A stretch of DNA of 64,000 nt, taken from Bernardetiaceae bacterium. Lineage in GTDB: Bacteria > Bacteroidota > Bacteroidia > Cytophagales > Bernardetiaceae. This document shows positions 38,888 through 53,755 of the stretch, in pieces (position 1 is the first letter of the stretch; every line of letters begins with the position of its first letter). Location of the stretch: positions 1 to 64,000 of the forward strand of contig JAFIER010000011.1 of NCBI GenBank assembly GCA_020832465.1, read 5' to 3'. The notes below the pieces were generated by a model. The model searched no databases and had not been told where the DNA came from. It worked only from the letters and a program-made list of their open reading frames with translations. Position numbers and translations under genes: made by a program.

Positions 38888-39006
38888 AACATCTAAAAGC
38901 AATCATATCTATTCCATACTGCTATACATTCGTCAGTCAGAAATAATATTTTAAGTTTATCTTTCCATATTGCTGTGCTATGGATAAGGGGGCTATCAGC
39001 TTGTGT

Positions 39007-39402
39007 TTATTCATATATTTGATAATCTCGGAATTGCTTATGCCGAAAGACACGTTTTGTAATAATGCTACCATCGGCTTGTTGTTCTTCGATGGAGTCG
39101 CGCTCCGTCGTTGCATAAACGGCACGCAAGCCTACTGAGTGGCAGAAATTTACCAATAAGTAAGTCAGACCAAAATCGCCTTGAATCAGCACGACATCAC
39201 CTGCTTGGGCTTCGGCTTTGAGGTGTGCGATAATAGGTGTGGCGTATTCGCTTAGGCTTTCGAGGTCGGGCGGTACGGCACTAAATTTTTTTTGTAAGGC
39301 ATCGGGTAGTGGCGCTATGCACTTAATGCCTAAGTTTTGCTCGGCATCAGTTTTCTGCTCGGGCGTAAGACTATGAGAAAAAAGAAGGTGTAGGGTTTTC
39401 AT
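39007..39402 (-). CDS. csx20: CRISPR-associated protein Csx20-like, possible ring nuclease
   Basis: Small protein of 131 aa beginning MKTLHLLFSHSLTPEQ and containing LGIKCIAPLPDALQ, FSAVPPD and GDVVLIQGDFGLTYLLVNFC, a pattern I recognise as the Csx20 family of type III CRISPR loci. Csx20 has a CARF-like Rossmann core, and members have been proposed or reported to degrade cyclic oligoadenylate, which would switch the effectors off. A TTG at 39465 extends the frame by 21 codons into the palindrome of copy E and is rejected. Last gene of the CRISPR locus, 125 bp after the CARF nuclease gene, with palindromes on both sides. No cOA specificity can be read from the sequence. Confidence 0.68.
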   Translation of the reverse strand: MKTLHLLFSHSLTPEQKTDAEQNLGIKCIAPLPDALQKKFSAVPPDLESLSEYATPIIAHLKAEAQAGDVVLIQGDFGLTYLLVNFCHSVGLRAVYATTERDSIEEQQADGSIITKRVFRHKQFRDYQIYE

Positions 39403-39446
39403 GTTTTTTTTATGGGGATTAGTTGTTGTGCGTAATGTTTGCCAGT

Positions 39447-39481
39447 CAGAAATAACATTTCTCAAAGCAATGTTATTTCTG
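39447..39481. repeat. AGAAATAACATT palindrome, copy E
   Basis: CAGAAATAACATT and AATGTTATTTCTG form perfect 13-bp arms. It separates the Card1-like gene from csx20 and could form a hairpin in the transcript. Confidence 0.75.
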
Positions 39482-39527
39482 AACAGCAGAATGTATAATA
39501 GACATTATCACGTTTCAATATTAAATG

Positions 39528-40679
39528 CTAACGTAGAAGTTTTTCTAAGAAGCTTTGTATATCCTTAAAATCATTACCATCAAAAAGTTTTATATTGAGC
39601 ACTTCGGTGCGGTCTTTAAAAAAGATTTGACTATCAGTAGATTGCGGTAGTTTTTGTAAAATACAAAGAGAAAGTACTACACCTAATCCAAAAAAACGGC
39701 GCAGTGCGGCAAGTTTATATACATATTCGTTAAAAGTTTGCATACCTGTTTTTTTGATGTCATAGATGCCTGTTTTACACTCGATAACATAAAATTTATT
39801 TTCATAGACAAAAACAATATCGAACTCATTGCCCGCAGAGAAACGCTTGCTTTTATCTTTATTGATTTCGATATTTAAGCCAATGCTATTTTTATCAAGT
39901 TGAAGCTGGTTTTTGATGCTGTGATACAGATATTCCTCCCACCAGCCTCCAACAAAATACTGAATTTCTTCTCTACTTAGCAAGTTTGCCTGCTTGGGGT
40001 TATAAGCAACCTGATTTAATCCTTTTTTTACCTCACTAAAACGAGCTTCATTGAGGTTAATAAAAGGACGATTTTGTAGTTCCTGTCCTAAGTGCTGTAA
40101 GTTTTTCCAGTAATGCCAAAAAGGTTTGCCTCGCTGGTAGCTTGTATTTTGGCGAAACATATTTTGGGTAATAGCCTCAGAGAACGTATGGTTTTTTTGT
40201 TGAAAACTTGCCTGACTTACTTTTACATCATAAGTTTGTAAGTATTCCAACAAATTGACTCGGTAGTCGAGAACTTGAACCTTGCTTTTAATTTCAGGAA
40301 AAACTTGTACAATTTCGTTTTTAGGAAATGGAATATAAAACATTTTACAAGACTTGCGTACAAAAAAATTATATACGCCGATAGCCATAATTTTTGTCCC
40401 TCCTGTAAGATTGACAGTAATTTCTTCATCGTCATGAAATTCTATATTGCTCAATTTGAGACTAATATCTTCCAAGCTATCCTCGAGGACTTGCTTAATA
40501 ATGACATTCGGAGCATTTCTATCTAAGCCTAAAACCTGTAATATATGTTCGGTTTTATGTTGCCCTTCCATAAAATCAGTACTCACAAAAATATACCTAT
40601 CCCATTGCTTTGTGCCGGATTTAGCAAAAAGCACATTGGGTAGCGTTTGTGCACTTGTGAGGGAGATGAGGGTGGGCAT
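39528..40679 (-). CDS. Card1/Can2-like CARF nuclease (first of two)
   Basis: 383-aa protein with an N-terminal CARF domain and a C-terminal PD-(D/E)XK nuclease (DUF1887 architecture). The CARF ligand motif is VNLTGGTKIMA (from residue 89); GGWWEEYLYHSI introduces the nuclease, and NEFD...VIECKT supplies Asp287, Glu300 and Lys302 (D-x12-E-x-K). Card1/Can2 proteins bind cyclic tetra-adenylate made by Cas10 and cleave DNA and/or RNA. It lies 55 bp after its paralogue, which it resembles only in these motifs, so the two are old duplicates or separate acquisitions. Active-site residues are intact. Confidence 0.85.
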   Translation of the reverse strand: MPTLISLTSAQTLPNVLFAKSGTKQWDRYIFVSTDFMEGQHKTEHILQVLGLDRNAPNVIIKQVLEDSLEDISLKLSNIEFHDDEEITVNLTGGTKIMAIGVYNFFVRKSCKMFYIPFPKNEIVQVFPEIKSKVQVLDYRVNLLEYLQTYDVKVSQASFQQKNHTFSEAITQNMFRQNTSYQRGKPFWHYWKNLQHLGQELQNRPFINLNEARFSEVKKGLNQVAYNPKQANLLSREEIQYFVGGWWEEYLYHSIKNQLQLDKNSIGLNIEINKDKSKRFSAGNEFDIVFVYENKFYVIECKTGIYDIKKTGMQTFNEYVYKLAALRRFFGLGVVLSLCILQKLPQSTDSQIFFKDRTEVLNIKLFDGNDFKDIQSFLEKLLR

Positions 40680-40734
40680 GGGCGTATTTTAGCTATATAG
40701 ATTTTATTGATAAGTTAAATGGTGTTCGTGTTGT

Positions 40735-41868
40735 CTATTTTAGGCGCAATATTTCTTTAATAGACCTTTCTTTAATATCTAAAAGTGATGCAATAGGAAT
40801 ACGGTTTTGCTTCGCACGTTCATAGTGTGTCTGTAAAGATTTTTGTAAATTTCCTTTCTCATCAACAACGGGACTTAATGTAAAAATAGATGTATTGGCA
40901 AAAAGACCAAAATCTTTTTGTAAGGAGTCTGATTTGTAGATTACACTCCCAATAATAGAGCGTTCTATTCCTGTTGTAGCATCTTTATCAAAAATAGAAG
41001 TTTTACATTCTATTGTATAAATGCGATTATTATAGACAAATAATACATCAAATTCATTAGGTACATTTTGCTTAACAAGACTGTAGCCAATACCTATCTT
41101 ATCGTCCTCGAGTTCGAGTTCGCTTTTTACCCGATTAAAAATATACTCCTCAAACCAATCACCCGATAGGTATCTGCACTCATATTTATCAAGTTTTTCA
41201 AGTTTTTTAGGTTGGAAATCAATTTTATTTAAAAACTTCTCGAGTCCCTCTATATTTTCTTTGGCTGTACTGAGATTTTTGCTACGAAAATTACGGAGTT
41301 CATTTAATATACTCTTCTCGTCTTCAGATATCTCGGTTGTAAAATACTGAAAAAATTTTTTGGTGAAATCTATGGGTTTGTAAAGCGTATTATTTGCTTT
41401 TTGCAATTCAAATCCATAGCTAACTAAATATTCTTTAAGACTTATAAATTCTTGTAATTGAAGTGCTTGCTTGCGTCTTCCTGGGAAGACTTTGATGTAT
41501 TCATTTCCTGAGCCTGTTATGTAGTAAATCTCGCTTTTTAAGTTTTTGAAGTATTCAAAAATACTAATTGACATGACTTTTGTGCCTCCTGTAATATTTA
41601 CAATGAACTCATCGTCATCGCTAAGTTCTGCCTCTGCTAATGAATTTTCAATGTCATCGAAAGAGTGTGCATCTACAATAATCGGCTGAAGAACTTTTTC
41701 CTCAGGCATGCCTGTTGCGTCAATTATCCATTGGCGATTTCCACTTTTTTCCATTCCGCTCGTGCTTATAAATAAAAAAGCATCTACACTCTTATCAAAC
41801 TCTTTTATAAGCTGTACATTAGGAATTGTTTGTGCGCTCACTAAACTAACTAAAACTTTACGTGCCAT
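40735..41868 (-). CDS. Card1/Can2-like CARF nuclease (second of two)
   Basis: 377 aa, same architecture as its neighbour: CARF domain with VNITGGTKVMS (residues 90-100), GDWFEEYIFNRV, and a PD-(D/E)XK centre with Asp274, Glu287 and Lys289 in NEFDVLF...TIECKT. Expected to be triggered by cyclic tetra-adenylate. The middle region (residues ~140-235) differs completely from that of the neighbour. It sits 100 bp after the GxxExxY gene, across a 64-nt inverted repeat. ATG at 41868. Confidence 0.86.
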   Translation of the reverse strand: MARKVLVSLVSAQTIPNVQLIKEFDKSVDAFLFISTSGMEKSGNRQWIIDATGMPEEKVLQPIIVDAHSFDDIENSLAEAELSDDDEFIVNITGGTKVMSISIFEYFKNLKSEIYYITGSGNEYIKVFPGRRKQALQLQEFISLKEYLVSYGFELQKANNTLYKPIDFTKKFFQYFTTEISEDEKSILNELRNFRSKNLSTAKENIEGLEKFLNKIDFQPKKLEKLDKYECRYLSGDWFEEYIFNRVKSELELEDDKIGIGYSLVKQNVPNEFDVLFVYNNRIYTIECKTSIFDKDATTGIERSIIGSVIYKSDSLQKDFGLFANTSIFTLSPVVDEKGNLQKSLQTHYERAKQNRIPIASLLDIKERSIKEILRLK

Positions 41869-41905
41869 AATTGTAATTATTTTAAATATTAAAATTTTAT
41901 TTTCT

Positions 41906-41969
41906 AATCCTGTTAATCCTGCAATCCTGTCCAGAGAAAATAAGACAGGATTACAAGATTTACAGGATT
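41906..41969. repeat. Inverted repeat of ACAGGATT units after the GxxExxY gene
   Basis: 26-bp arms at 41906-41931 and 41944-41969 with three mismatches and a 12-nt loop. The right arm is one mismatch from the core of the direct repeats at 42361 and 42411. It touches the stop codon of the GxxExxY gene, so it can form a strong hairpin at its 3' end. Confidence 0.8.
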
Positions 41970-42349
41970 TATTTTTTTGTATTCTTATAAACCCTGTATT
42001 TTCGCTTTACCACTACCGAACTTCCAAAATTGATAAGCAGTCCAATATCGGTATTAGTCCCGTTAAGGTAATTGACTAACTGCGTTTCGTGGATAGGCAG
42101 TAAATTTTCTACGGCTTTGAGCTCTAAGATTATGGTATCGTTTACATACAAATCAGCATAAAACTCTCCCACCAATTCATTTTTATAGAAGACATTGATA
42201 GGATACTGTTGAGCTACTCTGAAACCACTTCTCTCTAACTCAATACGCAGAGCATTTTCATAGACCTTTTCCAAAAAACCTGCTCCAAGCGTGTTGTGCA
42301 CTTGATAGGCTGCCCCAATAATTTTTTTAGTGAGTTCTTCGTGTAACAT
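41969..42349 (-). CDS. GxxExxY family protein
   Basis: 126-aa protein of the GxxExxY family, named for GAGFLEKVYENAL near residues 22-34. HNTLGAGFLEKVYENALRIE, FYKNELVGEFYADLYV and IILELKAVENL are family signatures; the D...ELK arrangement resembles a PD-(D/E)XK nuclease fold. Function is unknown. Genes of this family are often flanked by ACAGGATT repeats, and here they lie on both sides. It interrupts the CRISPR operon between csm5 and the CARF nucleases and is probably a passenger. ATG at 42349. Confidence 0.88.
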   Translation of the reverse strand: MLHEELTKKIIGAAYQVHNTLGAGFLEKVYENALRIELERSGFRVAQQYPINVFYKNELVGEFYADLYVNDTIILELKAVENLLPIHETQLVNYLNGTNTDIGLLINFGSSVVVKRKYRVYKNTKK

Positions 42350-42360
42350 ATTTCCTTTTT

Positions 42361-42438
42361 TTGACAGGATTTCAGGATTTACAGGATTATTTATCTTGTC
42401 TGCTTAGCTTTTGACAGGATTTCAAGATTTACAGGATT
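42361..42438. repeat. Two 28-bp direct repeats before the GxxExxY gene
   Basis: Copies at 42361-42388 and 42411-42438 start TTGACAGGATTTCA and end TTACAGGATT, with one mismatch in 28 and a 50-bp period. Related to the arms at 41906-41969. Confidence 0.85.
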
Positions 42439-42477
42439 TATTTTGGTGTTGATAAAGTGCTTAAAATCAAATTTTAT

Positions 42478-43638
42478 TTACTTAAAAGTGAGTTGTATAA
42501 ATCCAAAAGGCTCTTTAGCATCATCAACTTTTCGAGTTTTGGGTAGTGGAACATCGCCTGGATAAAACTTGCGCTGTACTTTTTGCCTAATACTATCCCA
42601 CATTTTATCGGAGATTAAATCAGGGTCTTGCACCCAGTCGCCTGTCATAAATGCCCAGCCTGTGCCACCACCTAACCGGAGTACACATTCGTTAGCATTA
42701 GAATTATTGCACACCTCGAGAATTTCTTTTAATTTTTGAATAAAATTATTCGCTATGTGCGTATCTATTTGATATTCTTGCGATTGGTCTTTCCAAAATT
42801 TAATTTCTCGCTCGAGAATAGACTTTGTGTGCTCATTGACAAGTGGAAAAAGTTTTTCTGGTGTGAGTAAATCGATAATAGGAGACTTTATATAGCCCTG
42901 TTTTTTTACCGCCTCAACCAAATCATCTGGCACTTGTATGCTACTTTTAGCTAACTGCCCTTCTTTAAGTGCTTCCCAAAAAATTACATCTCTGCCTTTC
43001 TCGCGCCAATCGTTTCGGTACTGATTGATAATACGACTTCTCAGACATACGGTCTCTCGAAAGTGCGTATCGCCGACTCGTAAAAATCGTAATAAATCAC
43101 TGTTGGCATTTTCTCTTGGATGCTTGGCATCAGGACTAAAAAAATGCGACATCATTCTCTTATCAGAAGGCTGATTACGATTATTTTTGATATTCGTATC
43201 GTTTAACGTGAAAGTACCTCCCTTAGACTTTTTGTCTTTGTCAAGCATGTAGGTCAGAAGTGCCGTGCGTATAGCTCCTTTGAGAGAAGAGCCCGGTAGC
43301 AGGGGGAGTCCCATGCCGTTGTGTAGCTGCTCCTTCATTTTATTTCTACCTTGTGGCACTGAACCTTGCGTAGCAATTTTTCGCTGTGCAATATCACCTA
43401 CTTCAAGATTTGGCTTTCGCGTGTTTAATAAACCTGCGAGACCACTGCGATTATTGATGGCATTTACCCATTGCCCTATATTTTCTTCGCCAATAATGCT
43501 CAATGCCTTTTGCTCATCGACAATACCCAAGCATTCGTCGTTAGTGAAATGTATAAAATCTAGGTCGTTTTCCAACTCTCTGCCACTGCCTATATGTACG
43601 GCACTTAGTGTTTTTATCAGTAATGTATGATTTGCCAT
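42478..43638 (-). CDS. csm5: Type III-A CRISPR RAMP protein Csm5
   Basis: Cap subunit at the 3' end of the crRNA in the Csm complex, 386 aa. The N-terminus LLIKTLSAVHIGSGRELEND is the RAMP/Csm5 signature, GLPLLPGSSLKGAIRTALL is the second RAMP motif, and VLRLGGGTGW is the Gly-rich loop. Separated from csm4 by two unrelated genes (ATPase and 371-aa protein), with only 2 bp between the latter and this gene. The 128-bp gap downstream holds the direct repeats. Confidence 0.92.
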   Translation of the reverse strand: MANHTLLIKTLSAVHIGSGRELENDLDFIHFTNDECLGIVDEQKALSIIGEENIGQWVNAINNRSGLAGLLNTRKPNLEVGDIAQRKIATQGSVPQGRNKMKEQLHNGMGLPLLPGSSLKGAIRTALLTYMLDKDKKSKGGTFTLNDTNIKNNRNQPSDKRMMSHFFSPDAKHPRENANSDLLRFLRVGDTHFRETVCLRSRIINQYRNDWREKGRDVIFWEALKEGQLAKSSIQVPDDLVEAVKKQGYIKSPIIDLLTPEKLFPLVNEHTKSILEREIKFWKDQSQEYQIDTHIANNFIQKLKEILEVCNNSNANECVLRLGGGTGWAFMTGDWVQDPDLISDKMWDSIRQKVQRKFYPGDVPLPKTRKVDDAKEPFGFIQLTFK

Positions 43639-43640
43639 AA

Positions 43641-44756
43641 TTAAAAAAAGTCAAAATGTGATGCGAAATTTTTGTTATTTTGAAAATCGCTAGATTCATA
43701 AACTAATGCAATATCTGATTTTCTACTAGTTAAAATATCTTTATATTTCTTTAGTTTAGATATTGCATCTTTGTTATTATGTCCCTCAAATAGTGAGAAA
43801 AAAGAGATATCTGTATCTTTAGTTGCTTGATTGTCTTTGTTTATCATGCATATAGAATTATTAAAGTTTATCTGATATGGATAAATAAAGATACGTCTAT
43901 CATGCAATATGCTACCTACTCGCTCTGTATTATTTAAGTTTTCAAAATCATAACACCATATAAACACTTTTACCTTTATAGTTTTAAGTTTATTGAGTAA
44001 CTTTTTTAACTGTTGCTTTAAATACTCGGTATTGAATGGTGGGCTAGGCGTTGCTTTAGATGATTTAAACCTTGTAACTATAAATACAGTTATATTTTCT
44101 AATTTAGAATTAGTTATGTGCTTTAATATTGATAAAATATTTCTGTCAATATTACTCTCATCAGTAGCAATATCTGAGAATAGATAAGGATCTACTATAA
44201 GCACAAAGCGACTGTAAAACTTATAGGGAGAAAAAAGGACTTCCCAAAAGTTATTTACTACTTCTCCTTTTGACACATACTTTTTTGTTGGCATATTTTT
44301 TAATAAAATTTTAGGCAGAATTTCAGAAACAAGCTCAACATTAAGCACGATAATACAATACTCTTGCATCAAAGCTCGGCAGTCTTCTGTACTGAGACTT
44401 GCTGTGCAGTATACAGAATAATTGTTAGTCTCTTTTTGTAAAAAATCCTTTATATCAACATTCTGAGTTTCTTTAGTAACCTCTTCTGGCTTTAATGCAC
44501 CTACTGACTCCGATAGGAAATCTTGAGCATCTTGTTTTTTAGCCTGTACATAGTTTTTGCGCTTTCTCGCATACGAGTAGAAACTCCAGCCATCTTCGTA
44601 AGTCATAATCAAAGATTCTAACAATCGAAGACTTTCCAATAAACGGTAGTTATTGTGTTTAACTTCTCTATTTTTTTCAAGCTGCTCCTTTTTTTCTTTG
44701 AAGCATTTGAGAAAAAACATGTCATAGTATAGATTTAAAGGTTTTGTGCTTTCCAT
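43641..44756 (-). CDS. Unknown protein with PLD/MIT_C-like motifs inside the csm operon
   Basis: 371 aa, family not recognised. The N-terminal ~110 residues are charged and helical. Residues ~130-300 alternate beta strands and helices: VLIVDPYLF (DPY at 189-191), ITVFIVTRF, VKVFIWCYD, then SILHDRRIFIYPYQ (LHDRRI at 284-289). A DPY strand followed by an LHDRxI strand resembles the phospholipase D-like domain of eukaryotic MIT_C proteins; only one such His-Asp-Arg motif is seen. No CARF signature, signal peptide or membrane segment. It overlaps the ATPase gene by 22 bp and ends 2 bp before csm5, so all are cotranslated. It may be the effector or partner of the ATPase. Base composition looks AT-richer than the neighbours. 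Confidence 0.85.
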   Translation of the reverse strand: MESTKPLNLYYDMFFLKCFKEKKEQLEKNREVKHNNYRLLESLRLLESLIMTYEDGWSFYSYARKRKNYVQAKKQDAQDFLSESVGALKPEEVTKETQNVDIKDFLQKETNNYSVYCTASLSTEDCRALMQEYCIIVLNVELVSEILPKILLKNMPTKKYVSKGEVVNNFWEVLFSPYKFYSRFVLIVDPYLFSDIATDESNIDRNILSILKHITNSKLENITVFIVTRFKSSKATPSPPFNTEYLKQQLKKLLNKLKTIKVKVFIWCYDFENLNNTERVGSILHDRRIFIYPYQINFNNSICMINKDNQATKDTDISFFSLFEGHNNKDAISKLKKYKDILTSRKSDIALVYESSDFQNNKNFASHFDFF

Positions 44757-46993
44757 AATTTTCCAAGTAGTTTAGAAGATTCGTCTATAAATCCAGTACC
44801 AAATTTGTCAGTCAAATCGCCATACTCATCGATTTCTATTCTTTTGCATTCTAAATCTTTCGTATCGGCATTTTTACCTAAGTAATAAATCAAAACATTC
44901 TCTGGGTTAAGCTTACCTTCGGCAACCAGAACCTGAAGTTTGAGTATAAAATGTATCGAGTGCGTTTCTAAGATAAAATTCAAGTTATTGAACTTTTCAA
45001 CAGACTCCTTAAAAAAGTCTGCTAATCGAGATTGCAGGAGTGGGTGCAGATGACTTTCGGGTTCTTCTACCATAATAAATTGCTTGTTGTTTGTACTCCT
45101 ATTGCCTATAGCTACAGTTTTCAGAATGATAGGTAAAACTTGAGAAATACCAAAGCCAAGATCAGATAGAGGCTCGCCATCTATTTCTGCAAATAGATAA
45201 GATCCTGTATTTTGAACTTTACTTATCTTAAGCTCTTTTCCTATCTCAAACTCTTTAAGCCATTTATTATAAAAATTCTCGTTATTATTTTTACCCTGCT
45301 TTCCAACTATTTGATTTTGCCGATAAATCTCAAAAATACTATCTGACAAATATCCTCCTTCAGAAACAAAAAAATGACTTTGCTCGCCCCTAAAAGATGG
45401 CAGAAAATGTACAGGCAGAGTCTCTGGGAGTCCTTTGAATAAGAATATTACGTCGTTTAATACTTTTCTTAAATATACTAGCAAAACGTCTGTCATATCG
45501 TCTTCGCTGAACAGCTCCGCCACACTCATGCTATTTCCAAAATCAGTATCCTTATATTTGGCAGGTGCAATATCTTTAACTGTTAGATTTGTTAATTTTT
45601 GGGCGATAAACTCACTACTCTTATTGTCAGATATCGCAAAATATTCTCGAAAGCTCCCCAACAACCCATTTACATCGATTTGCTCTATACTTGAAAAGGT
45701 AGGCTGTAAACCCCACACCAAACCATCTTCAGAATTAAATTCCGGCTCTTCGTCTTCATTAGTGTCTGCGTTCCCTGCCTCGACTACATGACCTTCAGCT
45801 ATTTTTAGTAGTTCTACTAAAAAGCTTGCCATAAATTTCTCTTCTGACAGCTCTGGCGTATAGTTCTTATCTTCTATTTGAGCTTTTCTGTGTTCTAAAA
45901 CACTTTTTGTATTTTCTGCTTTTACTATGGCGTTTTTATTTTTTATCCACTCGGGATACTGCTGAAAAATTGAATTATCAATAGTATGCGATCTTTTTTT
46001 TCCGTTCTCCTCAGGAGCTTTGCGTACATTTTTTAACTCTGCTTCTAATTCTTGTATTTGATTTTTATACTCTTCGTACAATTTTTCTCTCTTTTTATCT
46101 ATGTCAAGGGACTCCTCTGATGTTATGCCTTCCTTTTCTTTTTGAGATACAAGCTCAGAGTCCTGCTTTGTCTGTTGTGTTCTAAGATTGTCTATATCTT
46201 TTTGCAGCTTATCTTCTCTTTTGGCACTATCCTGCTGTTTAGTTTTTGGGTGCTTTTGTTCACTCAAAATTTTATTTTCTATTTCTTGATTTTGTTTCTC
46301 AAGAATTACTAAGTCAGTTTCTATTTGACTGATTTCAAAATCGATTTCATCAGTTTCTATTGATTTAAGGAAAGTATTGATTCCTTCTTGAAACTTATTT
46401 GAACTATGGACAAATTTATGCAAAGAGTAGACGAGTAAACTCGAGTTTTGTACCTTATAAAAGTTTAGAATATTCAAAATATGAATAGAAAGCACCCACT
46501 TCTTTTCGTCTTGCTCTGCACTATCTTTATTTTTTGAGCGAGTATCTTTTGAGTCTTCGGCAATAGAAGCAATTTCTATTCCCTCAAGAGTAATGGTGAG
46601 TTTTTGTAAGTAGGCTGGTTGGTTAAAGTCTATAATTTTATCATTTTTGCTTGTATAAGAAAACTCAATTTGCATTTTATTTTCTTCATGAGGCAGCAAT
46701 GTAGAATTTTCAGTTTTAGGTAAATAACCCTCTACTGCAAAAGCAATGACCCTGTCATTATTGGCTTTTGAAGAATGATTTAATACCGAATCAAAAGAGT
46801 TTAAAGCATGTTTTTTATTTGTAAAAAACAAATGTTCAGGCTCCTCGATATTGTCTTTCAACAATTGCAAAGCTTTAAAAAGTGAACTTTTGCCTGCACT
46901 ATTCGGACCTACAACGACCGTTATGGGACGTAAATCGAAACTTTGTTCTTTAAAAACACGAAAGTTTTTAACTGCTACTTTTTTGATATTCAT
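44735..46993 (-). CDS. ABC-type AAA ATPase with DUF3696 tail, inside the csm operon
   Basis: 752-aa ATPase of the AAA15/21, OLD/RecF-like group. Walker A is GPNSAGKSS (29-37), an ABC-like signature is LSDLGFGISQVLPI, Walker B is FIMVEEPESHLHP with Glu643-Glu644, and ETHSIHF is the switch region. A long charged coiled coil lies at ~215-345. The end (RIEIDEYGDLTDKFGTGFIDE) matches DUF3696. No TOPRIM or HNH nuclease domain is attached, so catalysis on nucleic acid would need a partner, and the overlapping 371-aa gene is the obvious one. Such ATPases are sensor halves of several anti-phage modules. It lies 28 bp after csm4 on the same strand. Confidence 0.88.
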   Translation of the reverse strand: MNIKKVAVKNFRVFKEQSFDLRPITVVVGPNSAGKSSLFKALQLLKDNIEEPEHLFFTNKKHALNSFDSVLNHSSKANNDRVIAFAVEGYLPKTENSTLLPHEENKMQIEFSYTSKNDKIIDFNQPAYLQKLTITLEGIEIASIAEDSKDTRSKNKDSAEQDEKKWVLSIHILNILNFYKVQNSSLLVYSLHKFVHSSNKFQEGINTFLKSIETDEIDFEISQIETDLVILEKQNQEIENKILSEQKHPKTKQQDSAKREDKLQKDIDNLRTQQTKQDSELVSQKEKEGITSEESLDIDKKREKLYEEYKNQIQELEAELKNVRKAPEENGKKRSHTIDNSIFQQYPEWIKNKNAIVKAENTKSVLEHRKAQIEDKNYTPELSEEKFMASFLVELLKIAEGHVVEAGNADTNEDEEPEFNSEDGLVWGLQPTFSSIEQIDVNGLLGSFREYFAISDNKSSEFIAQKLTNLTVKDIAPAKYKDTDFGNSMSVAELFSEDDMTDVLLVYLRKVLNDVIFLFKGLPETLPVHFLPSFRGEQSHFFVSEGGYLSDSIFEIYRQNQIVGKQGKNNNENFYNKWLKEFEIGKELKISKVQNTGSYLFAEIDGEPLSDLGFGISQVLPIILKTVAIGNRSTNNKQFIMVEEPESHLHPLLQSRLADFFKESVEKFNNLNFILETHSIHFILKLQVLVAEGKLNPENVLIYYLGKNADTKDLECKRIEIDEYGDLTDKFGTGFIDESSKLLGKLWKAQNL

Positions 46994-47021
46994 GGTAAAT
47001 TTTTAGTATAAAAAATCAAAA

Positions 47022-48266
47022 TTATTTCACTTCTAAACTCCTCATCGGCAAAAAAATGGCTTTTCCATCTCTCCATACGGGGTGCAGTACCTCGCTATCT
47101 GCCAGTATGGTGTTGTCGGGCTGTAAGTTTACAGTTTTGCCTTGCAGTTTTTGCTTGGGAAATATACTGCCTTCTGTAAACATATAGATTGACTTTTTGC
47201 GCAAGCTCACGTGTTGGGGGTTAGCAGGCGAAGCCAAATATCCACCTCGTTTGATGAGGTCATAAAAACTTTCTTGCATCAGCTTTCCGTTATTTCCAAT
47301 CTCCTCTTTGTACGGACAATAAAGCGAAAGATTGGTTTGAAATTCCGCTTCATCAGGCACATCAAGCGTAATCTCATCGTTCATATCGAGCTTAAAATGT
47401 CCGTTGCCGATATTTCTATCCGTACCTAAGCCACTATCTTGCAAAAGTTTGAGCGCGGCTTTGATTTTGGGCAGCTGCTTCTCGTCCTCTATATCAAGTA
47501 AGAAATATAAGCCTGTCTCCTCTTCTGCCTCATTTTGCTCTCGTGCTTTATCAGAAGACATGACTTTTAGCTTTCTATTTTGAAAGTAGAGTTTGTCAAT
47601 GTAATACGGCTCGGGTGGTGGCATAATAATATTACCGTTTTCATCAGCGTCAAACTCTCTTGCTGAAGGCTGAATACTCACTCTTTGGTCAGAAGAAGCA
47701 TCATAAATTTTGAACTGATGGCTTTTTTCGTATTTTTGAAACCACTGAACTAAATGCTCATTTTGAGAGGCAAAAGATTTAGCAAAGATTTCGTTATTTT
47801 TTTCTAACGTAAGAATTTCAGCAGTTTTCCTTTTAATCAGTTTCTCGAAAAGCGACTGACCCGCAAAAGTTATTTTTTTCAATACTTTTCGATTTTGCAT
47901 ATCAGATTCTGCACTCTTTTTTCCAGTTTTCGCATCCTTTTCCTCAATTTTGAATGGCGATATATTGTGCTGTGGGATAGGGAAAAAGTACTCCGTAATG
48001 AGTCCACTATTATCTATTTTGCTATCGCTATGGTGAAGTCTGTAATAGGGATAAGCAGAGGACACCTTAAAGCTCTCTAAAAAAGTCTTACCCTGTGCCT
48101 CGCTGGCTAATTCGTTATGAAATAGCATCAGCGCATTGACAAAAATAGCTGATTTGATGACATCAGAATGTAATGTCTTGAGTGTTCGGTCATAGTCAGA
48201 CGCACCGCGCGATATATGCAAAGGCGAGGTAAAGTTGAGTCTGACAGCAATAAATTTTTTTTCCAT
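47022..48266 (-). CDS. csm4: Type III-A CRISPR RAMP protein Csm4
   Basis: Csm-complex subunit binding the 5' handle of the crRNA and joining Cas10 to the backbone. 414 aa, longer than most Csm4 (~300 aa) because of an insert around residues 95-215. The N-terminus has VRLNFTSPLHISRG, the usual RAMP start, and the C-terminal half has LLQDSGLGTDRNIGNGHFKL, the Csm4 Gly-rich signature. It follows csm3 by 57 bp. Confidence 0.92.
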   Translation of the reverse strand: MEKKFIAVRLNFTSPLHISRGASDYDRTLKTLHSDVIKSAIFVNALMLFHNELASEAQGKTFLESFKVSSAYPYYRLHHSDSKIDNSGLITEYFFPIPQHNISPFKIEEKDAKTGKKSAESDMQNRKVLKKITFAGQSLFEKLIKRKTAEILTLEKNNEIFAKSFASQNEHLVQWFQKYEKSHQFKIYDASSDQRVSIQPSAREFDADENGNIIMPPPEPYYIDKLYFQNRKLKVMSSDKAREQNEAEEETGLYFLLDIEDEKQLPKIKAALKLLQDSGLGTDRNIGNGHFKLDMNDEITLDVPDEAEFQTNLSLYCPYKEEIGNNGKLMQESFYDLIKRGGYLASPANPQHVSLRKKSIYMFTEGSIFPKQKLQGKTVNLQPDNTILADSEVLHPVWRDGKAIFLPMRSLEVK

Positions 48267-48323
48267 GCGAAGGAAATTTTGTTTTGTAGATTAAAGAAAC
48301 AGTTGCTTGTAATGTTAAAGTTT

Positions 48324-49118
48324 TTAAGAGCGTATAGATTCTGGACAGTACTCTGCTAAAATCTTATCACCCTCTTCTTCGGCATTACTTCCGTCTTCAT
48401 CACCACGATAATAAGCGGCAGTTTTTACCAATACTTTGTCAATATTGATTGATATTTTACCACTTCCCCTTGAGCCGCTACCTCCAATATAGTCATCTTG
48501 CAATAACTCTAATGCACGGAACGTATTGATAATAAAATCTTTACGACTGTAAGGCTTGTTAGAAGAATCAATCTCCTCGAAAATATTGAGTACAATATCT
48601 AACTTAAATTCTGCACCTGCGGGCACACGCTCTAACTGTCTGGGAACAGCCGCTGAGGTAATTCTATCAATAACTACTTCCGTTTTTATTTCAGTAAGGT
48701 TCAGTTCAGTTCCTTTCAAAGCGCTTGCATTTTTAAGGATAGCATCTCTTACGATAATACGTGAAGGTCTTTGATTTCCATCATTTTTAGCTGTTCCAAA
48801 TAGCTGTGCAGTTATCAAGTTAATATCGTCAGAACTTACGAACTTGACATTGCCCATATTGGTAAACTGGATATAGTTTTTTCCATAGGATAGTTCTAAT
48901 AAACTGCGCATTTTGCCCTTGAGCGAACTTCCCGGAATATAAGGTTCGTCAGTTACGGGGTTGCGAATGACAGCATTATCTACACCACCGATTTGCATTG
49001 AAGTATTTGTGCCGCCAATGTGTAATCCCGAGTCAGCTGTGATAACACCCTGAATAAGAATTTTTTCTTTTAATTGAATACTTTGTCTTTCGTTCACTTG
49101 TTTTTTTTCTGTTGCCAT
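48324..49118 (-). CDS. csm3: Type III-A CRISPR RAMP backbone protein Csm3
   Basis: Backbone and target-RNA nuclease subunit, several copies per complex. 264 aa. SGLHIGG starts the RAMP fold, and IGGVDNAVIRNP keeps the catalytic Asp (Asp47, equivalent to D33 of S. thermophilus Csm3), followed by PYIPGSSLKGKMR. The Gly-rich loop is GGSGSRGSGKI. Target RNA cleavage should therefore be active, which in known systems ends Cas10 signalling. Confidence 0.95.
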   Translation of the reverse strand: MATEKKQVNERQSIQLKEKILIQGVITADSGLHIGGTNTSMQIGGVDNAVIRNPVTDEPYIPGSSLKGKMRSLLELSYGKNYIQFTNMGNVKFVSSDDINLITAQLFGTAKNDGNQRPSRIIVRDAILKNASALKGTELNLTEIKTEVVIDRITSAAVPRQLERVPAGAEFKLDIVLNIFEEIDSSNKPYSRKDFIINTFRALELLQDDYIGGSGSRGSGKISINIDKVLVKTAAYYRGDEDGSNAEEEGDKILAEYCPESIRS

Positions 49119-49168
49119 GATATATCGAATTTGAGTATATTAAATTTGAATTTTGTAGTAAAATAGAA

Positions 49169-49639
49169 TTAGTTTCTACCACCATTGACTTTGTGGTAGG
49201 CCAAAATAGCCTCAAAGAAATCGCAAAAATTTTGGTATTGTTTTGCAATAACTTTGTTGTCTTTGCTGGTATCAATAGCTTTTAGAGCTTCGGTCAAAAC
49301 AATTTGAAATATTTCAGAGCCCCTTGTACCTGCCCTTGCAGTAGCATAAGCCAATTTGGGTTGTAACATCAAAATGCTACTTTTTAGTGTCATTGTGCTT
49401 TGTACCCCTTCTGATTTTTCATCTTTACCGAGCGACCCTTGTATACGCCTTACCTCTCCAAAGACGTTACGAATCTGGCTTGTCGTCAAAGCTCGGAAGC
49501 CACCGCCCTCCTCTCCTAAGTCAGGACCTTGACCAGCGAGCAGTTTACCTAATCTTTCTACATAGTTGATAGTATCATCAGCGATACCTTCTTGTATCCA
49601 CTTTTTTTGGAAGTCCCTTTTTGTCCATTCGTTTGGCAT
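49169..49639 (-). CDS. csm2: Type III-A CRISPR small subunit Csm2
   Basis: Helical small subunit of the Csm complex, 156 aa. RALTTSQIRNVFGEVRRIQG and LKSSILMLQPKLAYATARAG are typical Csm2 stretches, and FCDFFEAILAYHK ends the bundle. Its presence between cas10 and csm3 identifies subtype III-A. It lies 36 bp after cas10. Confidence 0.93.
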   Translation of the reverse strand: MPNEWTKRDFQKKWIQEGIADDTINYVERLGKLLAGQGPDLGEEGGGFRALTTSQIRNVFGEVRRIQGSLGKDEKSEGVQSTMTLKSSILMLQPKLAYATARAGTRGSEIFQIVLTEALKAIDTSKDNKVIAKQYQNFCDFFEAILAYHKVNGGRN

Positions 49640-49675
49640 AAGTCTGTATTTTTTAGTTATCAGTTTGCTTTAAAA

Positions 49676-52213
49676 TTAGTTATTAGTAGAACGAATTTCC
49701 AACTCCGCCCAGCGAGCGGCTAAGTTGATAAGTTTGAACATAGTATGTGCCGTTTTCTTATCGGGATTTCGGCTATACTTATTGCAAAATATGTCTGTAC
49801 TCAGTCTATCAATGAACTGCCTTAGTTCGTTATCTCTGTACCTATCCTTGATTTGTGCAAAATCGTAGGCAATATTCCACTTCCAACTCGGAGCGGTAGC
49901 CTTTTGCGTTTGATACTCATATTGTTGGTAGTGAGCCTGTACTTTCTGCAAAATACTTCGTGTTTTTTTCCCAAAGACAACAAATTCGTCTTTTAGGTTT
50001 TCTACAATAGGAAACTCCTGCTCCCAATTGAGCGGCACTCCAAAAAGCGTAAAAGCATTTTTTTGGAAATAATACTCTTTACCGTTTTCTTCAATTTTAT
50101 ACTCGTGCTGTTTAGCTACTTTTTCGGCATCTTCACAAATTTGCGCCGCTTTCATAATCGGAAATTTTGCACCGACTGCGCTCATTCCGCCAGAGAGTTT
50201 GAGTTTAGTATTATAGCCTACATATTTTGCAAAGTTTTCATTTATGGCTTTTGCAAAGGCTATCATAATATCCCAGCGTCCTATTAGAAAGAGGTCGTCG
50301 CCTCCAGCGTAGAGAATAAGACTTCGCTTCTTAAATTCAATCTCTTCTACGCCATAACCTAAATTGCCCTCTGCCCATATATGGTTCAAATGCCCTTTAA
50401 AAAAGTAGTCCATACTACGGCTCAAGCATGCATAACGTGCAAAAGAAGCACGTGTGCCTAGACCACTCTGAAAAAGTGTACCTAAGTTATCCACGTCCAT
50501 GCGCAACACGCCTAATCGCTTAAAACGAGTCTCACCAAACTCTGGCGAGAAGGTCGTCCCCTGTTCCTCTTTTTCTGTATTGATTACATCTTCCTCGTCA
50601 GCTACGCCTGCTAAATTGCTAAATGTTTGGGGTATAGGCACTTTTGTTCCTTTTTTCAAAAACATCTGTTTTTGTGGCTGCTGATTTCCACCATATAAGT
50701 CAAAAGCAAAAATATGATTAGGAGGCTCTTTTACATTAGGATTTTGATATAGCAGGCTTCCTGTGTCATAATTGAGTTTGCGTACAAGTAAGTTTGAGTT
50801 TTTTGTGAAAAAATCATTATACTTTAGTGCTATCTTCTTGCTTGTTACTAATGTATAATAATTACCTAATCCACAAGGATTAAAGGTTTCATTACTTGTA
50901 GTGCCAGAAATTTCACTATTTTGTGAGATAATAAAATCGCTTTGGAAAAGCTGACTCCCCATCATAATCTGTTCAGCAGTAGCTTTTTTTAATGTCTTAA
51001 ACTCATTTAAGCCTACTTCCAAAATATTATTGCTTGCCTTTTCTGGAAGCCTTTGAGGTTGTGAACTACGCTCTCCTATAAAATAAACCTCTCTATTTTT
51101 AGCTTCTTTTTGTAGGATTTCATCACCTGTAATCACATCTTGTAATTGTGTGCCTTTACCATCGGTGGGGCTAGGCTCAAAAAACTTCTCGAACTGCTTA
51201 TCTACACTTTTTTCAAATAGGTTTGCGAAACGTCTTTTTTTGCGAATAGCTAATTTCTGATGCAGGCTACCCCAAAGCTCGCTCAACCCTAATCGTCCTT
51301 GCGTGGGGAAAACTTGATTTTTCCCAAAAGCTACAGTATCAAGAGCCAAAAATAAGGTAGATTGATGTGTTTTAAATATTTTACTGGCTATTTCAAAGTC
51401 TATATCTTGAAGTTTTTCTTCTACTTCTTGTGTATTGGGCGCAATAAGAAAAAAGCCGCCGCCTGAATCATATACAATATTACCTCGATAGAGATTTAAG
51501 TCTTGAATGATTTTTTGGACAATGCTATCTACTAAAAGTTGCAAATAAAATGAGCGTCCCTTCAAGTTTTTTGCTGCATTCTTACTTACAATATCATAAA
51601 TAAAACTTTGAATGCCTGATATATCACCTCCAAGTAACAATAAAGGTTCTTTTTCTGACAGACTGCCTTGTTCTTCAGCTTTTTGTAGGCTTATAGTTAA
51701 GCCCGCTTTCAAACGAATAAAATCATAAAAAGAAACATCAGTATTAGCTGTATAAGCTTCTGGAATAGTTGAAGTATAATATTGTAGAAGAGCGAGCAAG
51801 GTCTCGGCAGCTTCTTTATAGCCTCTAGGTATCTTATCTAACTCATCGCAAAAATGTTTAATTTGGACATCGACACTTGCTGTGTTTAGTTTCTGATTAT
51901 AGTTTTCTGATGGAAAATAGTCTTCTGAAAAAACAATTTTTTGTGGTTTGTAAAAAGTCTTTTTATTCGCCCCATCCATCGATGAAAATATAGAACTAAG
52001 CGCGTGTAAGTCTTTTATATCTAATATTGTATCAATTTTATTAGATAATGCCCAATGCCTTGCTTGTTGTAAAACTGTCTCAGGCACTACAAAATCTTCC
52101 AATGGCAAAAATAGCGTTTTAAGCTTATTGGCCACTGGCTTTAATAGCGGATGCTTTTCAATCTCTTCATAAATTGCATAAAAATACAATTTATCGTATG
52201 TAATTGTCTTCAT
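49676..52213 (-). CDS. cas10: Type III-A CRISPR large subunit Cas10/Csm1
   Basis: Signature protein of type III systems, about 845 aa. Numbered from the in-frame TTG at 52225 (the ATG at 52213, MKTITYDK, is the preferred start), the first palm domain begins GGDISGIQSFIY (199-210) and the second carries GGDD at 641-644 (LYAGGDDLFLIG), needed to make cyclic oligoadenylate from ATP. KAAQICEDAEKVAKQ after it is typical of Csm1. The N-terminal 190 residues contain no HD or HDIGK motif, so DNA cleavage by Cas10 is probably lost and immunity should depend on the CARF nucleases. First gene of the operon. Confidence 0.95.
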   Translation of the reverse strand: MKTITYDKLYFYAIYEEIEKHPLLKPVANKLKTLFLPLEDFVVPETVLQQARHWALSNKIDTILDIKDLHALSSIFSSMDGANKKTFYKPQKIVFSEDYFPSENYNQKLNTASVDVQIKHFCDELDKIPRGYKEAAETLLALLQYYTSTIPEAYTANTDVSFYDFIRLKAGLTISLQKAEEQGSLSEKEPLLLLGGDISGIQSFIYDIVSKNAAKNLKGRSFYLQLLVDSIVQKIIQDLNLYRGNIVYDSGGGFFLIAPNTQEVEEKLQDIDFEIASKIFKTHQSTLFLALDTVAFGKNQVFPTQGRLGLSELWGSLHQKLAIRKKRRFANLFEKSVDKQFEKFFEPSPTDGKGTQLQDVITGDEILQKEAKNREVYFIGERSSQPQRLPEKASNNILEVGLNEFKTLKKATAEQIMMGSQLFQSDFIISQNSEISGTTSNETFNPCGLGNYYTLVTSKKIALKYNDFFTKNSNLLVRKLNYDTGSLLYQNPNVKEPPNHIFAFDLYGGNQQPQKQMFLKKGTKVPIPQTFSNLAGVADEEDVINTEKEEQGTTFSPEFGETRFKRLGVLRMDVDNLGTLFQSGLGTRASFARYACLSRSMDYFFKGHLNHIWAEGNLGYGVEEIEFKKRSLILYAGGDDLFLIGRWDIMIAFAKAINENFAKYVGYNTKLKLSGGMSAVGAKFPIMKAAQICEDAEKVAKQHEYKIEENGKEYYFQKNAFTLFGVPLNWEQEFPIVENLKDEFVVFGKKTRSILQKVQAHYQQYEYQTQKATAPSWKWNIAYDFAQIKDRYRDNELRQFIDRLSTDIFCNKYSRNPDKKTAHTMFKLINLAARWAELEIRSTNN

Positions 52214-52690
52214 AAAAACTTTCAAAAATCTGATTACAGAAAAATCAAAAATAATAAGTGTGGCTACAGTGCTCTGCCTACTTATAAATTCTCACTCCAA
52301 ATATAAAAAACTTCCACCAAACTACCAACAAAAAAAAACAATAATTTAATGTGCTTGATTTACCGTACGCCAAAGATATATAACGCAAACAAATAAAGCA
52401 AGAAAGTAAGTGTTTTATTTTGTTTTAACTTGTTTTAAAACATTTTGTATTGTTTCAAAGCGGGTTTATAAAATTATACAAATTTGAGATGCAATAAGCT
52501 GATTACACATATTTGAATGGCCAGGAATATTTAAATGACTGATTTTAGCGTTTTATGCAATGGCTATGGTATAATTTTAAAAATTGTAAAAAAAACAAAT
52601 TATTCTTTTGAAAATAACCGCAATTAGCACTCTTTTTGCAAATTTTATGTTGTAGTACTAAATAAAATACCCTAAAATAAAATTGCTTTT
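52214..52690. other. Divergent intergenic region between cas10 and lepB
   Basis: About 477 bp, AT-rich. It holds a candidate promoter for the cas operon (52371-52401, minus). I looked for a CRISPR array or leader here and saw no repeat-spacer pattern. No RNA gene recognised. Nothing matching TAnnTTTG exactly was found for lepB. Confidence 0.6.
52371..52401 (-). promoter_or_regulatory. Candidate promoter of the cas10-csm operon
   Basis: On the minus strand TTG (52401-52399), a 20-nt spacer, then TATCTTTG (52378-52371), fitting the Bacteroidota -33 TTG / -7 TAnnTTTG form. It predicts a start near 52365 and a leader of about 150 nt before the ATG at 52213. Confidence 0.45.
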
Positions 52691-53755
52691 ATGAAGCACC
52701 ACAATCTATATCATAGCATATTGAATGCAGATAAAAAATGTATCACATTTTTTGAAAAACTGCAATATCCCCTCGCTTTTTTGCTGGGGCTTATGCTATT
52801 TTTATTTGTGGTTAGGGTGAGCTGTATAGAATATTTTTCTATTCCAAGCTCCTCTATGGAAGGTGCATTGCTCAAAGGAGATAAAATTATTAGTGCTAAA
52901 ATGCGCCTCAGCAACCTCTCAACCCTCGAGACAGCTTCTTATTATACACACTTTCATCAACATCAAAGCAATAATTTTTTTAACTTTGCTTGGACAAGTA
53001 TCCGGCATAACGATATTATTATTTTTAATTTTCCACCCGAAGTAAAAAAAAATATTGCCGAAAAAACTTGTTATATCAAACGCTGTGTAGGTCTGCCCGG
53101 TGATACTTTGCGCATCGAAGCACAGCGCGTAAGTATCAATAGCGAAGCCCTCAAAATGCCAGCTAATCAACAGCTCGAGTATTTGATTATATGTCAAGAA
53201 GATAAATTAGAAGCACTCGAAAGCTATTTTGAGGAACTTAATATCCATCAATATCGCCGGCATAGCAAAGGATTTGTCGTTTTGGCAGGCGATAAAAAAC
53301 TCGAACTCTTACATAGCCTCCCCGATGTTACACACATCGAAACGCGCTTTCGTGAACGAGGGCAACGCGAACGTGCTACTTTTCCACAGTCTGAATATTT
53401 TCATTGGAATCGCGACTTCCTCGGACCAGTTTACATTCCGCAGCGAGGTGCGCAAATCCCGCTTACCCCGCAAAATGTAATCCTTTATGGCGAACTTATT
53501 ACACGCCACGAAGGACACGAAAATATGTATATTCAAGATAATAAAATTTATGCCGATGGAGTAGTACAAAAAACATATACCTTTCGGCAAAATTATTATT
53601 TTATGCTCGGTGATAATCGCCATAACTCTTCGGATTCGCGTACTTGGGGATTCGTACCCGAAAACCATATCATCGGTAAGCCACTCTGGATTTATCAATC
53701 TCTTATCGATAAAGATCGTATTCGCTGGTCACGTATCGGTATGGCTATTCGCTAA
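52691..53755 (+). CDS. lepB: Signal peptidase I
   Basis: Membrane-anchored Ser-Lys protease that removes Sec signal peptides, 354 aa. One TM helix (~27-46) precedes SIPSSSMEG with Ser55; the general base Lys130 lies in YIKRCVGLPGDTL, and GDNRHNSSDSRTWG (box E) is intact. An insert of ~100 residues between the Lys box and box E is usual in Bacteroidota. Ends 16 bp before the convergent methyltransferase gene; no terminator is visible between them. Confidence 0.93.
   Translation: MKHHNLYHSILNADKKCITFFEKLQYPLAFLLGLMLFLFVVRVSCIEYFSIPSSSMEGALLKGDKIISAKMRLSNLSTLETASYYTHFHQHQSNNFFNFAWTSIRHNDIIIFNFPPEVKKNIAEKTCYIKRCVGLPGDTLRIEAQRVSINSEALKMPANQQLEYLIICQEDKLEALESYFEELNIHQYRRHSKGFVVLAGDKKLELLHSLPDVTHIETRFRERGQRERATFPQSEYFHWNRDFLGPVYIPQRGAQIPLTPQNVILYGELITRHEGHENMYIQDNKIYADGVVQKTYTFRQNYYFMLGDNRHNSSDSRTWGFVPENHIIGKPLWIYQSLIDKDRIRWSRIGMAIR

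Follow-up and report, generated by a model that had tools for sequence, protein, structure and literature searches.

It has been described that RAYT genes are flanked by two inverted REPs, that the gene tree agrees with the REP tree and that REPs also occur without the gene, according to the accessible part of the source (PMC2817692). For solitary four-helix-bundle (23S_rRNA_IVP) genes, the part of the paper at hand reports 18 inside cas loci of several types (PMC3936711).

GxxExxY genes are common, since 74 of the 148 Bacteroidota genomes sampled contain a match, yet they are almost unmentioned in the literature. Our literature searches, with subscription papers and preprints outside their scope, returned only passing mentions of the name and, by accession, family name and word string, nothing on a link between GxxExxY and repeats. 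A short word string that turned up in a cancer paper was judged a chance match. A solved relative or a published activity for GxxExxY was not found either.

In the present work, we analysed such a gene in a window of DNA, by which we mean the whole stretch of 64,000 nt. The window carries a type III-A CRISPR locus, whose genes are arranged on the minus strand in the order cas10, csm2, csm3, csm4, AAA ATPase, unknown ORF, csm5, cassette, Card1, Card1. The features of the cassette and of its immediate context are as follows.

39528-40679, minus strand: second Card1-type CARF nuclease (context; PF23400 and PF09002)
40735-41868, minus strand: Card1-type CARF nuclease (context; PF23400 and PF09002)
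41892-41905, plus strand: 14-nt direct repeat around the cassette, left copy, a weak candidate for a target-site duplication
41906-41969, R1 on the minus and R2 on the plus strand: inverted repeat of 64 nt that folds as DNA, 3' of the GxxExxY gene
41906-41930, minus strand: R1, copy of the repeat unit with 0 mismatches, forming the left arm of the inverted repeat
41945-41969, plus strand: R2, copy of the repeat unit that forms the right arm and abuts the GxxExxY stop codon
41969-42349, minus strand: GxxExxY gene, 126 aa, predicted PD-(D/E)XK fold (PDDEXK_3), from profile matches and the predicted structure
42364-42388, plus strand: R3, repeat unit on the 5' side of the GxxExxY gene
42414-42438, plus strand: R4, repeat unit, 50 nt from R3
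42469-42482, plus strand: right copy of the flanking 14-nt direct repeat, overlapping the csm5 stop
42478-43638, minus strand: csm5 (context; TIGR01899, 84.9 bits)

The cassette, its repeat unit and its protein

A preliminary description of this DNA had noted two direct repeats upstream of the gene, a 64-nt inverted repeat downstream of it and a cassette that separates csm5 from the CARF nucleases. All of this was borne out. The direct repeats lie at 42361-42388 and 42411-42438 (27/28 identical, 50-nt period), the inverted repeat is real, with its right arm R2 one base off R4, and the locus order places the cassette between csm5 and the CARF nucleases. The statement that the cassette interrupts the CRISPR locus holds for its position between csm5 and Card1, but the wording should be read cautiously, because the locus already has an odd gene pair between csm4 and csm5.

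This csm4–csm5 gap (43641-46993) contains a 752-aa AAA ATPase (AAA_15; best PADLOC model NsnB, 153.6 bits) and beside it a 371-aa ORF without Pfam, NCBIfam or PADLOC match, and the two constitute a second odd insertion within the csm operon. The two tandem Card1-type genes (39528-41868) share about 32% identity with one another. No 23-mer is repeated within positions 1-64000 of the window; therefore, by this simple test, no CRISPR array is seen there.

Allowing up to three mismatches, the 25-nt unit ACAGGATTNCARGATTNACAGGATT was found at 42 sites in the 4.6-Mb assembly, four of them in the cassette and 38 elsewhere, and the reversed control pattern at none in the same assembly. A search of the genome for further copies had been proposed earlier, and these 38 near-copies demonstrate that the unit is not confined to the cassette; they stand against a single GxxExxY gene in the assembly. 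Folded as single-stranded DNA, positions 41900-41975 reach -19.7 kcal/mol (z -8.2), and none of 200 shuffles was as good, while the upstream repeat pair alone does not fold above shuffles (z -0.1). The whole cassette as RNA folds better than shuffles as well (z -5.4), a figure that includes the gene and the hairpin.

Many of the unit copies in the window's genome (L016-L039) lie inside a larger composite repeat, which often starts with TTGTCTGAATC or TTGTCAGAATC and in places is a long palindrome or adjoins a recurrent CCGCCCCTTTATCCCCTCC stretch. The same genome also contains a YhcG-type PDDEXK gene (L031:412-1440; PF06250, PF17761) that is bordered on either side by related repeat units.

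The 126-aa ORF matches TIGR04256 (GxxExxY) over residues 5-115 with 142 bits against a cut-off of 35, and PDDEXK_3 (PF13366, 143.5 bits) is the sole Pfam family at E 0.01. In 44 aligned sequences, E27, D66, E76 and Y94 do not vary, while K78 and Q90 are each conserved in at least 90%. These residues fit the pattern E...D...ExK...QxxxY, in which Q90 and Y94 represent the QxxxY motif of Cas4. The GxxExxY protein of the window has no cysteine and therefore no Cas4 Fe-S cluster, so that it is not a canonical Cas4.

Using the predicted structure (pLDDT 94.4), the best Foldseek match was SSO0001 (4ic1) with an E of 4.8e-4, the sole entry below 0.001. A second structural aligner gave Z 9.7 for SSO0001, which we take to be a Cas4, and 7-8.6 for other PD-(D/E)XK enzymes. 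A PDB sequence search up to E 1 yielded no match for the GxxExxY protein, and PADLOC has no model for such a protein. The protein is thus predicted to adopt a minimal Cas4/RecB-like PD-(D/E)XK fold without the Cas4 cysteines. The nuclease-like core which had been attributed to the family agrees with the putative D...ExK active site, the PF13366 match and the modelled PD-(D/E)XK fold, and the protein presumably acts as a nuclease.

Flanking words and protein lineage

For the comparison of GxxExxY loci, a first sample of 93 loci was assembled from the window, 12 family loci (full-length, other than the window's, among the 18 matches listed) and the best 80 of 554 confirmed loci from named genomes, which, being the best, lean to close relatives. 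Three of the 93 were unscorable, and three loci of this first set (L094, L124 and L042) have short or broken ORFs. A second sample of 30 GxxExxY loci was drawn separately, from the matches in 148 genomes that cover the phylum broadly. An inverted repeat was scored by local alignment of the 200 nt upstream with the reverse complement of the 200 nt downstream at a score of at least 15; this threshold was picked after the first control distribution had been seen, and the second sample was scored with the same value.

We found an inverted repeat in 60 of the 90 scored loci of the first sample, compared with 13 of 310 neighbouring ORFs (at least 100 aa) from the same loci. In the second sample it was present in 23 of 30 GxxExxY loci and in none of 30 genes for Uma2, another small PD-(D/E)XK family, fetched likewise. 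Both samples together gave 83/120 versus 3/62 when the control ORFs were restricted to those with 80 nt or more of free sequence on either side; the other 37 of the 120 scored loci are below the threshold. Uma2 has 15 matches in the window's own genome, and of the 148 genomes in the phylum sample 24 have at least one. Among the control ORFs, the highest score for a flanking inverted repeat (44) belongs to one resembling an IS200/IS605 transposase (L115:1105-1557; a weak match, below cut-off).

The 4-mer autocorrelation of the flanks peaks at lags of 9 (4.1x control), 10 (2.8x) and 18-19 nt. The period of 9-10 nt was seen again in the second sample, where the Uma2 flanks were flat. The flanks contain short words repeated every 9-10 nt, usually with the word upstream and its reverse complement downstream, and the word differs among loci. 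Three word classes cover 86 of 123 loci by patterns that were written after inspecting the flanks: A (ACAGGAT-like, the window's), B (ACRCNGAT) and C (CRCNRAG). The remaining 37 of the 123 loci fall outside all three. In all three classes the words face inward, upstream plus and downstream minus being in excess; the word-density profile is partly a product of its construction. A conserved neighbour was not seen among the 93 loci, the largest shared family touching six of them.

Hence, the gene-between-words architecture is general in the GxxExxY family. The link between such proteins and repeats, mentioned as unexplained in the preliminary description, is real and far wider than had been recognised, as the 83/120 loci and the word classes demonstrate.

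We have further shown that the word class follows the protein lineage and not the host phylum. On the tree of 120 proteins, of which 85 rows are labelled, the word class needs 4 changes, and 300 shuffles need at least 31. For the 47 labelled rows with a known phylum, which span 12 phyla, the phylum needs 20 changes and the word class 2, with at least 9 in within-phylum shuffles. An earlier two-class test had given 2 changes against a shuffled mean of 18.7, and none of 500 shuffles was as low. The protein tree is based on few columns and has many open forks; nonetheless the contrast with the shuffles is large. Because the word classes track the GxxExxY tree across 12 phyla, the most parsimonious reading is joint inheritance and joint transfer of gene and words. 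A natural next step from these sequence comparisons is that the GxxExxY protein may recognise its words.

The window's own word is mostly absent around the GxxExxY genes of the family. This seemed to be a refutation, which was overturned by the other words found in those flanks. A 9-9-spaced version of the pattern occurs at 11 sites in 4 of 148 genomes (control, 1 site); the spacing in the window is 9-8, and the 9-9 pattern therefore says little about the window's unit. A further word type, GACAAAAGAACA-like, was observed at GxxExxY loci of Bacteroides and Coprobacter (L085, L123, L137), beside a conserved downstream gene start.

A similar frame was found around the four-helix-bundle (S23) genes L138-L167, 16 of 30 of which have an inverted repeat, here with words that recur every 7 nt (peaks at 7, 14 and 21). 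TIGR02436 (S23 four-helix bundle) has matches in 113 of the 148 sampled genomes; in the window's genome it gave no match in a search in which the controls were silent too. Since S23 and GxxExxY are unrelated small proteins that share this arrangement, the result suggests a broader class of word-bounded genes.

Genomic context and presence or absence of the unit

In 11 family genomes only the window's own csm5 and one weak csm5 match were found. Matches to csm5 occur in 28 of 395 phylum genomes, the best outside the window's being 30% identical, and none of the 395 contains a close relative of the window's csm5 locus. GxxExxY had to be considered as a regular part of the system at this position. 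This is not the case, because the 30 further csm5-homologue loci, covered to about 1.5 kb on either flank as far as the contig reaches, are all without one. Nothing suggests that the type III system needs the cassette.

Four class-A relatives (L058, L061, L066 and L083) are located between cas4 and cas1 in type I-B loci without grouping as a single clade (AU p 0.024, the group having been named after seeing the tree). Genes of cas type were detected near 5 of 22 class-A loci, including the window, which had been chosen for it, and near none of 101 others; the queries were the cas proteins from those same loci and from the window, and part of the loci extend about 1.5 kb per side. Restriction genes are neighbours at three loci of the family: at two of them GxxExxY is placed between hsdS and hsdR, and at the third it comes after hsdS. 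Of the immediate neighbours, 129 of 131 were scanned; 4 match Cas1, 5 match mad3, and each of two restriction models has 2 matches. Among 108 distant ORFs, none of the 25 defence families listed occurs more than once.

Elsewhere in the family, a GxxExxY unit is found between an adenine deaminase gene and manC, a junction present in seven genomes of one genus. Two of them (G002 and G004) have the full-length gene there; in G006 the frame is uninterrupted apart from one stop near the start, and in G001, G003 and G007 the copies are truncated or broken. Neither gene nor words are present in G005; on the seven-genome tree, a loss of the unit there is no less likely than a gain elsewhere. A search for target-site duplications gave no clean case. 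The 14-nt direct repeat around the cassette, which was picked post hoc (13/14 match; 41 of 2000 shuffles as good), is a weak candidate for one. The 50,697 phage records contain no GxxExxY match, and 8 of 72,556 plasmid records contain one, none of them more than 60% identical. In view of the different states of the adenine deaminase–manC junction, the unit may be mobile.

Interpretation and comparison with known systems

We propose, giving the idea about an even chance, that the cassette is a copy of a widespread REP/RAYT-like gene-plus-repeat unit whose nuclease acts on its own words. Such a unit would comprise a solitary GxxExxY gene between words with a period of 9-10 nt, mainly in inverted orientation. 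The protein would recognise its own words, in double-stranded or hairpin form, and cut the DNA there, and the cut followed by repair would copy or move the unit, or the words alone, into intergenic DNA. By analogy, the unit may work like a REP-RAYT pair in which a PD-(D/E)XK nuclease replaces the Y1 transposase. In the window, it would have landed between csm5 and card1. We infer the cutting, the copying and the movement by GxxExxY from the arrangement and the predicted fold. Several points argue against this reading. No clean target-site duplication was found, gain and loss are equally possible at the adenine deaminase–manC junction, 37 of the 120 scored loci are below the inverted-repeat threshold, and a solved relative or a published activity did not turn up. 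The tree result needs no recognition of the words if gene and words simply descended together as linked DNA, and the genome of the window has 38 near-copies of the unit, many in another composite repeat, but only one gene.

The flank words may instead pair in the transcript around the ORF, and RNase III may cut the stem out, as in the 23S rRNA IVS encoding S23. The four-helix-bundle genes with their like architecture (16/30, 7-nt period) are consistent with this, and so is the Coxiella IVS, for which the accessible part of the source gives terminal inverted repeats, a 28-bp stem and three heptamers before the S23 ORF (PMC4990558). However, pairing in RNA predicts an excess of G-U mismatches, and on the gene strand of the 83 loci G-U and A-C mismatches amount to 176 and 182 (p 0.79); in the four-helix-bundle loci they amount to 17 and 16, a comparison of low power. 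Codirectional neighbours on both sides are not in excess (50/75 versus 122/217 controls, p 0.13), the upstream neighbour alone gives no signal (64/75 versus 170/217, p 0.24), and no Rfam match was found in 39000-53000. We hence consider excision from the transcript improbable. The RNA-level stem was dropped as support for an RNA role, and a DNA-level unit is favoured, because G-U and A-C mismatches are equal. That the strong hairpin right after the GxxExxY stop codon is a mere transcription terminator or insulator between csm5 and card1 is very hard to believe, as the same words are present upstream as direct repeats, elsewhere in the genome and around the genes of the family.

The near-copies elsewhere in the genome, all 38 of them without the GxxExxY gene, could also mean that an ordinary nuclease gene arrived by horizontal transfer and that host repeats then inserted around it or recombined across it; its protein would be idle on the repeats. 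The words also multiply at other junctions of some operons (L058, L066), as would be expected from such a passive ride. It is nevertheless rather unlikely in our view, given that the words track the protein clade across 12 phyla and that Uma2 genes from the same phylum sample are devoid of inverted repeats (0/30). The protein might further be a CRISPR or defence accessory, that is, a small Cas4-like nuclease which aids spacer acquisition or target destruction. In favour of such a role, cas genes are near 5/22 class-A loci versus 0/101 others, four of them between cas4 and cas1 without being one clade, two family loci are between hsdS and hsdR, and the fold nearest to the predicted structure is Cas4-like. 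Yet no cas gene was seen in the stretch searched at 17 of the 22 class-A loci and at all 101 others, 30 of 30 other csm5-homologue loci are without GxxExxY, there is neither a PADLOC model nor the Cas4 cysteines, and the words are left unexplained by any accessory role. We thus give it little credence.

Returning to the gene-plus-repeat unit, we can extend the proposal, with some reserve, to the family as a whole. GxxExxY units may be a distinct class of repeat-propagating element that spreads words and gene, with a parallel S23 class using 7-nt words, and CRISPR and restriction operons, notably the cas4–cas1 junction, may be repeated landing places; we regard this as possible, though somewhat doubtful. 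If the protein acts on its words, it would be a nuclease-based counterpart of REP-RAYT, and a large set of short dispersed repeats would be explained. Care would then also be called for before such genes are classed as cas or restriction accessories. For a direct test, suitable substrates with their matched controls are at hand in the word classes.

Compared with the 23S rRNA IVS with its S23 ORF, the cassette has in common a small solitary ORF within inverted repeats and repeated words before the start codon, as far as the IVS is covered by the accessible part of the source (PMC4990558). It differs in being located between csm5 and card1 and not in rRNA, in having another protein fold and no S23 ORF, in the period of 9-10 nt in place of 7 nt, and in showing no sign of RNA-level pairing. 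The 23S_rRNA_IVP genes of cas loci encode a different protein, and flanking repeats are unmentioned in the part of that paper at hand (PMC3936711).

With the Cas4/RecB-family nucleases, the GxxExxY protein shares the E, D, ExK and QxxxY residues, and SSO0001 is its best structural match. Unlike Cas4, it has 126 aa, no cysteine and no conserved cas neighbourhood.

The likeness to REP-RAYT lies in inverted repeats that enclose an ORF and have further copies at other places of the genome. In contrast to RAYTs, there is no Y1/HUH transposase (Transposase_17) here but only PDDEXK_3, the window's unit is without a GT(A/G)G head, and the repeats are 9-10-nt periodic words in place of one GC-rich palindrome. 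Moreover, GxxExxY occurs in 12 phyla, whereas the RAYTs in the accessible part of PMC2817692 are those of gammaproteobacteria. Overall, the GxxExxY unit may be called REP-RAYT-like by analogy of arrangement, but not a member of that system.
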